NCBI GenBank assembly: GCA_013362195.1
Contig: JABFWM010000098.1
Coordinates: forward strand, 1 to 34,080
DNA from: Acidobacteriota bacterium
GTDB taxonomy: Bacteria; Acidobacteriota; Vicinamibacteria; Vicinamibacterales; 2-12-FULL-66-21
Length of the DNA: 34,080 bases
Reading direction: 5' to 3'
The translations under genes were made by a program, and so were the position numbers. Shown here piece by piece: positions 18,966-24,425 of this stretch. Within the stretch, counting starts at the first letter, position 1, and every line of letters begins with the position of its first letter. The notes below the pieces were generated by a model. That model saw nothing but the letters and a program-made list of their open reading frames with translations, was not told the DNA's origin and searched no databases.

Positions 18966-19700
18966 TTAACGCGGCGGCGCCTCCCGGTACGGCGTTGGAT
19001 CCTCCACGCCGGCTTCCCTGAACGCGTCGCGGCGCTCGCGGCACTTGCTGCAGCGGCCGCAATGCTGCCCGCCCGACGGCTGCATACACGACAGCGTCAG
19101 CTCCAGCGGGACGCGGAGCGCGACCGCTTTCCGAATCACGTCGGCCTTGTGCAGGGACGCGAACGGCGCCTCGATGCCGATCGGATGCGCGAGTCCGAGC
19201 GACAGCGCCCGCGCCATCGCGGCGAAGAACTCCGGCGTCGCGTCGGGAAAGGGATTGCCGGCCAGCGGACCGATGGCGACCCGCGAGATGCCGGCGCGCG
19301 CCATGTACACGGCGGCCTTCGAGAGCAGGATGACGTTGCGCCCGTCGATGAACACGTCCTCGTCGGGGGTGTCGAAGGCGGGCGGCTCACCGCGCACCGC
19401 CCAGTGATGGGAGGGGAACACGTCGCGCATGTCGAAGTGCAGGTGCACGAGCGGCGCGACGCGGTCGCGCATCGGCAGCGCGTCGAGGAACCGGGCCGCC
19501 ATCGCCTGCTCTTCCTTCTCCCACGCGAAGCCGACGCCGACGTAGATCGGCGCGACCTTGCTCGTCCGCGCCGGCGGGCGCTCGGGTGGATCGCCATCCG
19601 TGACGGCGTCGCCGCCGGCAGCGGCGACTGCGACGAGGACGGCGCTGTCGAGCCCACCCGAGAAAAGCACCGCGGTATAATCCGCAGGATCGACGGTCAC
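18966..19700 (-). CDS. queC: 7-cyano-7-deazaguanine synthase (QueC) family protein
   Basis: PP-loop LFSGGLDSAV; C-terminal zinc site LSCMQPSGGQHCGRCSKCRERRDAF. Confidence 0.85.
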   Translation of the reverse strand: MTVDPADYTAVLFSGGLDSAVLVAVAAAGGDAVTDGDPPERPPARTSKVAPIYVGVGFAWEKEEQAMAARFLDALPMRDRVAPLVHLHFDMRDVFPSHHWAVRGEPPAFDTPDEDVFIDGRNVILLSKAAVYMARAGISRVAIGPLAGNPFPDATPEFFAAMARALSLGLAHPIGIEAPFASLHKADVIRKAVALRVPLELTLSCMQPSGGQHCGRCSKCRERRDAFREAGVEDPTPYREAPPR

Positions 19701-19724
19701 ACGTTCACCACATCACGAGCATCC

Positions 19725-20129
19725 ATGTACCTCGTCACGAAACGCATCGAGTTCTGCTACGGCCACCGCCTGCTCGACTACGACGGCGTCTGCAAGCACC
19801 CGCACGGCCACAACGCTTCGGTCGAAGTGGAGGTCCGGACGGATCGCCTGGACAACCGGAACATGGTGGCGGATTTCAGCGACATCAAGCGCGTCGTCAA
19901 AGGGTGGATCGATCGCGAGCTGGATCACAAGATGATCCTGCGGCAGGACGATCCGCTGGTGAAGCCGATGAAGGAGCTCGGCGAGCCGATGTACCTGCTC
20001 GAAAGCAACCCCACGGTCGAGCGGCTCGCGAAACTCATTTACGACAAGGGCCGCGAACTCGGCGTCGACATCGTCGCCGTGCGCATCTGGGAGACACCGA
20101 CATCGTTCGCGTCATACTCCGAGAACTGA
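19725..20129 (+). CDS. queD: 6-carboxytetrahydropterin synthase (QueD) family protein
   Basis: FCYGHRL, KHPHGHNASVEVEV and IWETPTSFASY motifs; divergent partner of queC. Confidence 0.87.
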   Translation: MYLVTKRIEFCYGHRLLDYDGVCKHPHGHNASVEVEVRTDRLDNRNMVADFSDIKRVVKGWIDRELDHKMILRQDDPLVKPMKELGEPMYLLESNPTVERLAKLIYDKGRELGVDIVAVRIWETPTSFASYSEN

Positions 20130-20257: not shown

Positions 20258-21694
20258 CTACTTCTTGAAAGGCGCCTCGTACGAGAAGTAGGCGAGGATG
20301 CCGGCACTCGACGATCCTGCCGTCCACGAGATCGGGACCGCCGCCCCGATGATGATTTGGGTGTCGGCCGCGAGGTTCCACCCGCCGCGCACGCCGGGTG
20401 CGAGGACGAACGTGCGGTCGCGCTCCGTCGCGCGGCGTCCGTCGCGCACGACTTCCTGCTGATCGAACGTCAACACCGACTCCAGCATCACGTGCAGCAT
20501 CGGCGCGGCGCGATAGATCGCGCTTCCGGCAAGCTGCGGCACGACCAGGTTCGGGCGGTTCGACCGGTGCGTCCACGTCATGCCGCCGTTCCAGTGGAAA
20601 TAGAGGTCGTCGCGCTGTTTGCTGAACGGCAGATTGAACTGCAGGCCGGTCGAGCGATCCGTCCGGGCGGTCGGGACAATGGCGCTGAGGCGCGGTGAGA
20701 ACGCCGGCCGTCCGGGCCCTTCTTCCAGCAGCTGCAGGCGGTAGTTGACCAGCGTGTCGCCAAGACCTTCGGCGCCGCCCATCGACGAAAACGGAATCGT
20801 GTAGGACACCTGGTGACGCACACCCGTGACCGGCCATTCCTGCGTGAAGGTCAGGAACCAGTCGCCGTCCTGATGCATCCAGTTGACGATGTTCTGGAAG
20901 GTGCCGGGTTCCTGGTTGAACGCTTCTTCGACCAGGAACGAGTTGTCGGTAATGTCGAATGGCTCCTCGACCGGCGGCGTCTGCGCGCTGGCGCCGACCG
21001 CACTCGCGATCCACAGGCACACCACCCCGATGGCCTGCACGAGCACCTTCGAGGCCGCGCGCGCACCAATCGTGATCTCGCGCCTGCCGCGGCCGCGCAG
21101 CCGGACGCTGTCGGCGGCGGCGTCTCGCTCCTCGACGCTGACGCGCTGCCCCGGCTTGAGATCGTGGCGCTCCACGAAACGCAGGAACTCGCTGTCCTGA
21201 TCGGTGACGCGCCGGATGGTGACCGGCTCGTGCAGCGGGCACGTCATCAACGTGTCGTACTCGGGCCGGGTCACGGTGCCGTCTGCATCGGGAATCGGAT
21301 CGCCATGCGGATCGGCCGACGGCCGCCCGAGCATCTCGTCCATCAGTTCGATCAGCCGATCCGAGACCGCGTGCTCGAGGTGCTCCGCTTCGTCGTGCAC
21401 CTCCGCCCAGCTCATGCCCATCACGTTGACGAGGAAGAGCTCGATGAGCCGATGGCGCCTGAGCACCAGCGCCGCGAGCTTCTCGCCGGCCTTGGTCAGG
21501 CGCACGCCCACGTACGGCTCGTAGCGCACCAGGCCTGACTCGGCCAGGGTCTTGACCATCGTCGTCGCGGTGCCCGGCGTCACGCCCAGCGCGGCGGCGA
21601 GCTGTCCCATCGGCACGAGCGCGGGCGTATCGCCCGCCGTCTGCGCCTGGAGAATGGCCTTCAGGTAGTTCTCGACGGTTGGACTGGCAGCCAT
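20258..21694 (-). CDS. MntR/DtxR-family metalloregulator fused to a signal-like hydrophobic segment and outer-membrane beta-barrel-like domain
   Basis: One uninterrupted ORF: HTH GQLAAALGVTPGTATTMVKTL, metal/dimerization VHDEAEHLEHAVSDRL, FeoA-like SH3 domain, then QAIGVVCLWIASAVGASAQTPP and ~230 aa of amphipathic strand-rich sequence. Confidence 0.82.
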   Translation of the reverse strand: MAASPTVENYLKAILQAQTAGDTPALVPMGQLAAALGVTPGTATTMVKTLAESGLVRYEPYVGVRLTKAGEKLAALVLRRHRLIELFLVNVMGMSWAEVHDEAEHLEHAVSDRLIELMDEMLGRPSADPHGDPIPDADGTVTRPEYDTLMTCPLHEPVTIRRVTDQDSEFLRFVERHDLKPGQRVSVEERDAAADSVRLRGRGRREITIGARAASKVLVQAIGVVCLWIASAVGASAQTPPVEEPFDITDNSFLVEEAFNQEPGTFQNIVNWMHQDGDWFLTFTQEWPVTGVRHQVSYTIPFSSMGGAEGLGDTLVNYRLQLLEEGPGRPAFSPRLSAIVPTARTDRSTGLQFNLPFSKQRDDLYFHWNGGMTWTHRSNRPNLVVPQLAGSAIYRAAPMLHVMLESVLTFDQQEVVRDGRRATERDRTFVLAPGVRGGWNLAADTQIIIGAAVPISWTAGSSSAGILAYFSYEAPFKK

Positions 21695-21719: not shown

Positions 21720-21741
21720 TGATTTTGAGTCGTCAAAATCA
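21720..21741. promoter_or_regulatory. candidate operator: perfect 9-bp-arm inverted repeat TGATTTTGA-GTCG-TCAAAATCA
   Basis: In the 68-bp divergent intergenic region between the MntR-like fusion (start 21694) and the multicopper oxidase (start 21763). Confidence 0.62.
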
Positions 21742-21762: not shown

Positions 21763-22827
21763 ATGGCCCCGACAGTTGGTCTCACCCGCCGTGCATGGAT
21801 GCGGCTCGTCGGCGCCGGCGCGGCCGCCGCGGCACCGCTGGCGCGGTCGCCCCACGGCGCCGCCGCGCAGGGGAGCGGTCCCGGCGCGCCGCCGCCGCTG
21901 CCGCACGCCGCCCACGCGATGGGCCCGGTCGGGCGCGTGACATCCGACGCCATCAACCCGACGGCCTTTCTCCGGACCTGGAACTTCGCCGATCTGCCGC
22001 CCGAGAAGCGTGCCGAGTACTACCGCGAAACGCGCCGGCCCGACGGGTCGTTGCTGCGCGAGTACCGGCTCGTGGCCGTCGACCGCGAGATCGAGATCGC
22101 GCCCGGCGTGTTCTTCCCGGCCTGGACGTTCAACGGTCAGGTGCCCGGACCCACGCTGCGCGCGACGGAAGGCGATCGCGTCCGGGTGACGTTCGTGAAC
22201 GAAGCATCGCATCCGCACACCATCCACTTCCACGGCTGGCACCCTCCCGAGATGGACGGCTCGCTGCCGGAGCATCAGGTGGTGCCGGGCGGGCAGTTCG
22301 TCTACGAGTTCGACGCGGACCCGTTCGGGCTGCACTTGTATCACTGCCACGCGGCGCCGCTGAAGCGTCACATTCACAAGGGCCTTTACGGCGCGTTCAT
22401 CGTCGATCCGCGCGGCGGGCGCCCGCCCGCCGATGAACTCGTCATGGTGATGAACGGCTTCGACACGAACTTCGACGCCGATAACGAGGTCTACGCGGTC
22501 AACACCATCGCGCATCACTACACGCACGAGCCCATCGTTGTCGGCGTCGGCGCGCTCGTCCGCCTCTACGTCGTCAACGTCACGGAGTTCGATCTCGTCA
22601 ACAGCCTGCATCTCCACGGGATGTTCTTCACCGTGAACCGCACCGGCACGACCCTGACGGGCGGCGAAGTCACCGACACGGTGATGCTCTGCCAGGGCGA
22701 GCGCGCGATCCTCGAGACGCGTTTTCGATTTCCCGGCCTCTTCATGTTCCACGCCCATCAGAGCGAGTTCGCGGAACTCGGCTGGATGGGCCTGTTCGAA
22801 GCCGTGGGGGTGCGTCGTGATACCTGA
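21763..22827 (+). CDS. two-domain multicopper oxidase-type protein with TAT signal
   Basis: TAT-like LTRRAWMRLVGAGAAAAAP; copper motifs HTIHFHGWH, LHLYHCHAAPLKRHIHKG, LHLHGMFF, FMFHAHQSEFAELGWMG. Confidence 0.88.
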   Translation: MAPTVGLTRRAWMRLVGAGAAAAAPLARSPHGAAAQGSGPGAPPPLPHAAHAMGPVGRVTSDAINPTAFLRTWNFADLPPEKRAEYYRETRRPDGSLLREYRLVAVDREIEIAPGVFFPAWTFNGQVPGPTLRATEGDRVRVTFVNEASHPHTIHFHGWHPPEMDGSLPEHQVVPGGQFVYEFDADPFGLHLYHCHAAPLKRHIHKGLYGAFIVDPRGGRPPADELVMVMNGFDTNFDADNEVYAVNTIAHHYTHEPIVVGVGALVRLYVVNVTEFDLVNSLHLHGMFFTVNRTGTTLTGGEVTDTVMLCQGERAILETRFRFPGLFMFHAHQSEFAELGWMGLFEAVGVRRDT

Positions 22828-24028
22828 AACGACTCGTGACGCGCCGTCGCCGCGCCAGCGACTGTGGGTTGCCGCGGTGATTCCGCTCGCCGCGCTTGCC
22901 GTGCTGCTCGCCGCCCTCGTGTTCGTCCGCCCCGCGGATCGACTGCGCGGCGTCGGTGTGCCGCCGGTCGAACGGCTCACGGTCGAGCGCACCGTCCTCC
23001 GCCCCGGCGGCATCCTGCTGTCGATCCTGAACGATGGGCCGGATCCCGTCACGATCGCTCAGGTTAGCGTAGATGACGCCTACTGGTCGTTCACTGCGGA
23101 TCGGGGCACGACGCTGAAGCATCTCGGGCGTACGCAGCTGACCATTCCTTACCCGTGGGTCGACGGGGAAGCGCACACCATCAAGCTCCTCACCTCCACT
23201 GGCACCGCGTTCGAACACGAGGTAGCGGTTGCGACGCCGACCCCGCAGCCCGACGCGCAGTATTTCGTGACGTTCACCCTCATCGGCCTCTACGTCGGCG
23301 TACTTCCGGTTGCGGCGGGTCTTCTCTGGTTTCCGTTCATGCGACGCCTCGGCCGAACGGGTCTCGACGTGCTGCTCGCGCTGACCGTCGGACTGCTCGT
23401 CTTTCTGCTCGTCGACACGACGCACGAAGGCCTCGATGCCGCCGCTCGCCTGCCCGACTCGTACCAGGGCGTCGCGCTGTTCGCCTCCGGCGCCGCGGCC
23501 GCGTATCTGGTGCTCGAATGGGTCGGAGCCGTGCTTCGCACGCGACGCACGCACGAGCGGACGGCCGGCGCACCGGGCGCGATCCTCGCGCTGCTCGTCG
23601 CCATCGGCATCGGCCTGCACAACCTTGGCGAAGGGCTGGCGATTGGCGCGGCGTTCACGCTGGGCGAGGCGGCACTCGGCACGCTTTTGATTGTCGGCTT
23701 CACACTGCACAACACGACCGAGGGGCTGGCCATCGTCGCGCCGCTCGCACGGGAGCGGCCGCCCTTGGCGATGCTGCTGCGGCTCGGGCTGATTGGCGGC
23801 GTGCCCACGATCGCCGGCGCATGGATTGGAGGGTTGTTCTATTCTGCGGTCCTCGGCGTGCTGTTCCTCGGCCTCGGCGCCGGGGCCATCGCCCAGGTCG
23901 TCCTGCAGATCTCGCGACAGATCGCCGGACCACAGACCATCGGCGAGCGGCTGACGTCCGTCCCGGTCCTCTCCGGCCTCGCAGCGGGGTTCGCGGTGAT
24001 GTATGTCACCGGGATGCTGGTCGGGTAA
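22817..24028 (+). CDS. ZIP-family metal transporter with N-terminal extracytoplasmic domain
   Basis: ZIP motifs IGLHNLGEGLAIG and FTLHNTTEGLAIV; TM anchor plus ~100-aa beta-rich segment before the ZIP helices; overlaps the oxidase gene by 11 bp. Confidence 0.85.
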   Translation: MIPETTRDAPSPRQRLWVAAVIPLAALAVLLAALVFVRPADRLRGVGVPPVERLTVERTVLRPGGILLSILNDGPDPVTIAQVSVDDAYWSFTADRGTTLKHLGRTQLTIPYPWVDGEAHTIKLLTSTGTAFEHEVAVATPTPQPDAQYFVTFTLIGLYVGVLPVAAGLLWFPFMRRLGRTGLDVLLALTVGLLVFLLVDTTHEGLDAAARLPDSYQGVALFASGAAAAYLVLEWVGAVLRTRRTHERTAGAPGAILALLVAIGIGLHNLGEGLAIGAAFTLGEAALGTLLIVGFTLHNTTEGLAIVAPLARERPPLAMLLRLGLIGGVPTIAGAWIGGLFYSAVLGVLFLGLGAGAIAQVVLQISRQIAGPQTIGERLTSVPVLSGLAAGFAVMYVTGMLVG

Positions 24029-24032
24029 CACG

Positions 24033-24425
24033 ATGACGATGGTGAGCAGATCCGTTCGCGGTCTGGCCATTGGCGCTGCCGCCCTCGCCATCGCGGCGAT
24101 GATTCCGATCATGGGGCTGAGCCGCGAAAGCGAACGTGAGCTTCGGATCGCAGTGATCGATCGCGCGTTCTATGTCGATGGACGGAGCGACGCGAACCCG
24201 ACGCTGACCTTGCGCGCCGGCGAGCGGGTGCGTCTGGTGCTCCGCAACAACGACGGCGGGATGAAGCACGACTTCACCATCCGCGCGTGGGGCGTTGCCG
24301 TGCCGCCGATTGACGGGCGCGGCGAGCGCGCGATGACGTTCCGCGTTCCCGAGACACGCGGCGCGGCGGTCTATAACTGCACGCCACATCCGGTCTCGAT
24401 GCGGGGGACGATCATCGTCGAATGA
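24033..24425 (+). CDS. membrane-anchored cupredoxin-like protein
   Basis: N-terminal TM; copper ligand pattern MKHDFTI...YNCTPHPVSMRG (H...C-x2-H-x3-M). Confidence 0.78.
   Translation: MTMVSRSVRGLAIGAAALAIAAMIPIMGLSRESERELRIAVIDRAFYVDGRSDANPTLTLRAGERVRLVLRNNDGGMKHDFTIRAWGVAVPPIDGRGERAMTFRVPETRGAAVYNCTPHPVSMRGTIIVE

Follow-up and report, generated by a model that had tools for sequence, protein, structure and literature searches.

We found that a gene of a Vicinamibacterales bacterium encodes, in one uninterrupted frame, a metal-dependent regulator of the MntR/DtxR type, an internal segment resembling a Sec signal peptide and a predicted outer-membrane beta-barrel. The fusion is real, conserved and unusual, and undescribed as far as our literature search reached, no MntR-outer-membrane-barrel fusion having been found in it; the sequences suggest a plausible mechanism. 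Presumably, a protein that controls genes and one of the cell surface begin here as one chain, to be cut in two. To our knowledge, a single chain that crosses compartments in this way, joining a DNA-binding repressor of the cytosol to an outer-membrane barrel, has no precedent. The gene lies in a contig stretch of 34,080 nucleotides, hereafter called the window. As a preliminary description of this DNA had claimed without giving a strand, regulator and barrel form a single ORF; it encodes 478 amino acids and runs on the minus strand from an ATG at 21694-21692 to a stop at 20260-20258 (Table 1). The domains proposed there, an MntR-like regulator, a Sec signal and an outer-membrane barrel, agree with the Pfam matches, with hydropathy and motif, and with the fold model, respectively.

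Table 1. Features of the fused gene and of the adjoining divergent genes in the window
Feature	Position	Strand	Basis
Fused CDS, 478 aa: MntR/DtxR regulator, internal signal peptide, predicted outer-membrane barrel	20258..21694	-	
Winged-helix DNA-binding domain, PF01325, residues 5-64	21503..21682	-	Pfam
Metal-binding/dimerisation domain, PF02742, residues 67-136	21287..21496	-	Pfam and residue alignment
FeoA/SH3-like domain, PF04023, residues 148-220	21035..21253	-	Pfam and fold model
Putative internal Sec-type signal peptide RAASKVLVQAIGVVCLWIASAVGASA, cut before Q, residues 212-237	20984..21061	-	Sequence inspection, hydropathy, relatives
Predicted mature barrel, residues 238-478, FapF/COG4313-like fold, PF13557-like, C-terminus EAPFKK	20261..20983	-	Pfam and AF2
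Palindrome TGATTTTGA-GTCG-TCAAAATCA, candidate MntR operator, divergent promoter region	21720..21741	.	Pattern search and relatives
Multicopper oxidase, Tat-like signal, Cu-oxidase_3/Cu-oxidase_2	21763..22827	+, divergent	Pfam; start ATG 21763 is our reading
ZIP-family metal transporter, ZupT-like	22817..24028	+	Profile match below cut-off
Cupredoxin-like protein	24003..24425	+	Weak profile match

Judged by its domains, the segment from residue 1 to 220 is a complete MntR/DtxR-type regulator of the long DtxR type. All three Pfam matches exceed their cut-offs (Fe_dep_repress, E 5.5e-12, 46.1 bits against 26; Fe_dep_repr_C, E 2.7e-29, 101.4 bits against 27; FeoA, E 7.4e-11, 42.4 bits against 23). 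When the AF2 model of the whole fusion (mean pLDDT 89.7) was used in a structure search, the top PDB matches of the regulator fold were the Mn-dependent repressors 5zr6, SloR, ScaR and DR2539. Like these MntR/Mn-dependent DtxR repressors, the regulator combines a winged helix-turn-helix, a metal-binding/dimerisation domain and a FeoA/SH3 domain, and has Glu in place of DtxR Cys102; as with MntR repressors, ZIP or NRAMP genes with a palindromic candidate operator lie nearby. Unlike them, its C-terminus goes on into a signal peptide and a barrel. The glutamate replacing the cysteine of DtxR and IdeR, already pointed out in the preliminary description, is Glu104, and the alignment showed it, together with His81, Glu107 and His108, in every one of the 16 fused and 48 stand-alone regulators aligned. 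The positions of Asp8 and Glu11 in Bacillus MntR are occupied by Asn9 and Lys12 in this regulator, a state common to all relatives aligned. The NCBIfam MntR equivalog NF047407 gave 164 bits, below its cut-off of 350, and was still the best of four DtxR-type models. Mn would be the effector of the regulator half, to which the palindrome and the ZIP and NRAMP neighbour genes are circumstantial pointers.

The window is rich in GC and its ORF listing contains spurious frames of about 600 amino acids, so that an open frame alone is no evidence for a fusion. The fusion is real because both halves have homologues in one and the same frame and because this arrangement is common to at least 17 genomes. 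The homolog search that had been proposed for it yielded one full-length match, joined at the same residue and with no stop within the frame, in 16 of the 162 genomes of Vicinamibacterales (the TAG reported for G020 is its terminal stop), and a 17th stop-free fusion in the GTDB record L150. The carriers range from 68% down to 56% identity to the window protein and fall into four family groups (f1, f2, f10 and f13). Their records stem from many MAG projects, the named members being uncultured MAGs, and the group consists of soil and groundwater Acidobacteria in which the fused protein is usually the sole close MntR of its genome. No fusion was found outside the order among 396 genomes sampled across the phylum, where regulator and barrel matches were separate. 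In one carrier (G110, L095:3271-4521), the fusion is in frame despite a FeoA-domain deletion of about 35 residues. An assembly error or a single-base loss is ruled out by the 17 genomes with the same fusion. Relatives with two genes, from which the preliminary description would have concluded such an error, do exist (G061, G062, G065 and G085), but with 16 other genomes fused they do not indicate a local base loss.

The call of a signal peptide at the junction is based on motif and hydropathy. The segment has an n-region with R212 and K216, a hydrophobic core and the sequence ASA followed by Q, a pattern that recurs in 16 of 16 fusions. In the window protein the core reaches a 12-residue hydropathy mean of 2.45, the highest anywhere in the chain, and in all 16 fusions no 12-mer of the protein is more hydrophobic than that in the segment beyond residue 216. 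In each of them, the signal segment starts after the equivalent of K216 and leads, about 20-22 residues on, to a small residue and then Q; a site of the type small residue-x-small residue before Q is retained in nearly all. Stand-alone regulators terminate in RAASKVLVQ plus a few residues, and 87 of the 88 in the order have, at the exact fusion point, a short non-signal tail of 2-34 amino acids; the remaining one (G121) has a relic hydrophobic, signal-peptide-like tail. Since the fused chains pass from the regulator's usual end straight into the hydrophobic core, and since the AF2 model places the last SH3 strand at residues 217-221 and a helix at 224-235, the model indicates that this strand also serves as the signal peptide's n-region. 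Across eight pairs, dN/dS was 0.04-0.19 in the regulator, 0.12-0.34 in the barrel and 0.13-0.92 in the short signal segment; these values are rough, synonymous sites having come close to saturation in several of the pairs. These ratios argue for purifying selection on the regulator and barrel halves alike, the higher ratio of the signal segment being expected if only its properties are kept.

We considered the possibility that one frame yields two proteins, translation of the barrel mainly starting internally, close to the junction, at a GTG, TTG or near-cognate codon, with the fused chain as a by-product. The window gene has GTG codons at K+1, K+3, K+8 and K+9, one of them with a weak AGGT upstream, so that the window by itself cannot decide on an internal start; furthermore, in f6 relatives the GTG start of the barrel either overlaps with the stop of the regulator or almost adjoins it. 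Yet, no position at the junction has an in-frame ATG, GTG or TTG conserved across the 16 fusions, and G002 has none of these codons from 45 codons before the junction to 18 after it. G117 and G125 offer only starts that lack a good Shine-Dalgarno sequence at the junction or that lie within the hydrophobic core, and a start at K+1 or later in the window would strip the n-region of its positive charges. With no conserved junction start and one member devoid of any, internal initiation was rejected as a mechanism common to the family, and we regard it as an unlikely explanation overall. Of the three alternatives raised in the preliminary description, a processed polyprotein or membrane-tethered regulator has come out best, whereas the internal GTG start is not conserved in the family; a separate barrel product is possible for the window gene alone.

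The explanation that we favour, and hold to be probable by a modest measure, is that the gene belongs to the MntR regulon and encodes a polyprotein processed by signal peptidase, which would release an outer-membrane metal channel and leave MntR transiently tethered to the inner membrane. From one mRNA and one frame, a Mn-type DtxR repressor would be made first, followed by the signal peptide and the channel. The hydrophobic segment at about residues 222-233 would be recognized by SRP or SecA and delivered N-in to SecYEG, signal peptidase I would cleave after ASA237, and the barrel would reach the outer membrane via BAM. MntR would stay cytoplasmic, its C-terminus keeping the signal peptide as a membrane tail, from which a site-2 protease of the RseP kind might later release it. 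With sufficient metal, the repressor would bind TTTTGA-N4-TCAAAA and shut off both the gene that encodes it and the divergent multicopper oxidase/ZIP operon. A more tentative corollary, which we would not put beyond a possibility, is that each exported channel leaves one MntR membrane-tethered, so that regulator amount, regulator location and channel output would be stoichiometrically coupled, possibly with a reset by the site-2 protease. A long folded cytoplasmic domain ahead of a cleaved signal peptide is unusual. In the model, the last SH3 strand and the membrane helix are two residues apart, so that insertion of the helix might be in competition with FeoA-domain folding. This closeness, the long folded domain ahead of the signal, the GTG codons of the window gene and the relatives without a fusion speak against a polyprotein.

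The signal segment might alternatively be an uncleaved or slowly cleaved anchor that permanently holds a one-component regulator at the inner membrane, the barrel part serving outside as a feedback partner in a manner resembling FecR/FecA. The N-in/C-out geometry is compatible with this, as is the MntR of G121, with its signal-peptide-like tail and no barrel. However, the cleavage-type site is retained in nearly all fusions, and an uncleaved barrel would be unable to leave the inner membrane, which makes a permanent tether decidedly improbable.

The C-terminal half is predicted to be an outer-membrane beta-barrel. The match to PF13557 (Phenol_MetA_deg, residues 277-448, E 0.003) has 18 bits, below the gathering cut-off of 22, which is passed by the fused relative G006 (24.1 bits) and by L211 (32 bits). 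In the AF2 models of the whole fusion and of signal peptide plus barrel (mean pLDDT 82 for the latter), the barrel matched the solved structures of FapF (E 4e-8 to 2e-7) and of the COG4313 channel 4rl8 (E 1e-5). In its predicted fold, the barrel resembles the PF13557/COG4313/FapF channels. It differs from them in that a signal peptide running on from a transcription factor stands in for its own, in a conserved N-terminal DNSFLVEEAFNQE segment and in its Pfam score below cut-off. Several relatives end in ELPF, as compared with EAPFKK in the window barrel. The family is also found alone, in Geothrix, Aromatoleum, Verrucomicrobia and Gemmatimonadaceae.

A palindrome located between the fused gene and the multicopper oxidase operon connects the barrel to the regulator by another route. 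Its core (21723-21738) occurs once in the genome of the window, and TTTTGA-N4-TCAAAA lies upstream of all 16 fusions, exact in 15 and with one mismatch in G020. Genome-wide counts were obtained by pattern searches with the reversed pattern as control: among 14 further genomes, 13 had 1-3 copies and the control had no match; the only genome with zero palindromes was G001, which has lost the regulator. The palindrome also precedes stand-alone or tandem barrels, exactly in G161 and G085 and with one mismatch in G046 and G061, though not all of them, which suggests that the barrel is tied to the Mn-type MntR regulon independently of the fusion. Other genes preceded by it are those of NRAMP in G119 (divergent from the fusion, with the palindrome between), a Porin_O_P porin (L230) and a multicopper oxidase (G046). 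Presumably, MntR binds TTTTGA-N4-TCAAAA. In G009 and G002 (L277, L288), a second exact palindrome precedes an ICMT/PEMT-like methyltransferase gene.

The divergent multicopper oxidase is likely to be under the same candidate operator as the fused gene. The operon of multicopper oxidase, ZIP and cupredoxin genes (21763-24425, plus strand) adjoins MntR in most fused genomes and may serve in Mn oxidation or periplasmic metal handling. The synteny is stable, ubiE, cupredoxin, ZIP and multicopper oxidase being divergent from the MntR-barrel gene, which is followed by QueD/QueC. In the window, QueC (minus strand) and a QueD-like gene (plus strand) at 18966-20129 adjoin the barrel, and they are syntenic in most fused relatives.

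Relatives without the fusion are many, indicating that it is dispensable. Regulator and barrel are tandem genes in G061 (f6) and G085 (f11), nearly abut as two genes in G065 (f6), and overlap by GTGA in G062 (f6), the barrel being in another frame. In G008, the barrel stays at the QueD/ubiE site and MntR-MCO-ZIP is located elsewhere. G001 has lost the regulator, and ahead of its barrel 33 nt are left, in frame, of regulator codons 154-164, identical at 26 of 33 nt, a value reached by none of 2000 codon shuffles. In G121, MntR ends in KVLVHTPAAAAILLELVTSA with no barrel, an ungapped alignment giving 13/20 with the signal peptide of the fused G116. MntR of G004 adjoins QueD, the barrel being absent; a search for barrel relics 3' of the regulators of G004, G108, G012 and G011 found none. 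In G011 (L114:2583-5180, L290), the barrel's place is taken by an ORF of 865 aa that contains a CarboxypepD_reg domain like those of TonB-receptor-like proteins and has an MntR-type palindrome of its own. In G119 (L115:3807-5585), the same MntR and signal peptide are in frame with a different barrel, PF07396 Porin_O_P, whose stand-alone relatives are often near MntR; this suggests that outer-membrane proteins of different kinds can be joined to the regulator-signal-peptide part. One neighbourhood recurs in G012, G045 and G034 (L226, L227, L229): a stand-alone MntR, then a di-haem oxidoreductase (DHOR) in convergent orientation and a porin of the Porin_O_P type.

The branching of the barrel tree largely reflects the family groups, stand-alone barrels being nested within the fused ones, and a single clade of fused barrels was rejected (AU p = 1e-4). 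Together with the regulator tree, on which the fusion label has to change at least 10 times, this means that losses and splits, or repeated fusions, took place; the fusion may be old and have been lost repeatedly, or neighbour genes may have fused more than once. These label changes, the patchy distribution and the losses or splits in G001, G004, G008, G011 and G121 would also fit a tolerated accident, in which a stop between two operon genes was lost with neutral effect and the fusion, exporting its barrel poorly, is being lost again. Yet, four family groups at about 56-68% identity retain the fusion, with purifying selection on both halves and with the signal properties preserved, and we consider an accident very improbable, more so than any other reading discussed here.

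Known systems share single aspects with the fusion. In FbcH (cytochrome b/c1) of Bradyrhizobium, an internal signal sequence is cut and two inner-membrane subunits of one complex result; the internal signal dividing one chain into two proteins is common to both cases, but here the products would be a DNA-binding protein and an outer-membrane barrel. A Verrucomicrobia ORF (L190:6014-7921) likewise unites a DtxR-type metal-binding domain with a metal transporter. Unlike in the window protein, the regulator part there follows an inner-membrane ABC-3 permease, with no export signal and no outer-membrane part. This ABC-3/DtxR fusion is located near a relative of the barrel. The Mn-dependent regulator of the Bradyrhizobium channel MnoP is Mur, of the Fur family, unlike the DtxR type found here. 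MnoP is an outer-membrane Mn channel for Mn uptake (PMC9334652); as such channels exist elsewhere, the barrel is likely, by analogy, to be a metal-repressed uptake channel. The functional idea is the same, but MnoP is encoded separately from its regulator and is a different channel. RseP clears remnant signal peptides and cuts FecR (PMC8144685), and FecA-FecR-FecI resembles the proposed arrangement in that an outer-membrane metal transporter is linked to a type-II inner-membrane regulator cut by RseP (PMC8144685), in contrast being a sigma-factor system of separate genes with no fusion.

If the chain is processed as proposed, signal peptidase is able to sever a regulator from the very protein that it controls, and an internal signal functions behind a 215-residue folded domain. 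The findings connect a barrel family that is widespread and poorly understood with Mn-type regulation in uncultured soil Acidobacteria, in which the tandem, overlapping, fused and split states form a natural series and a ready test system.
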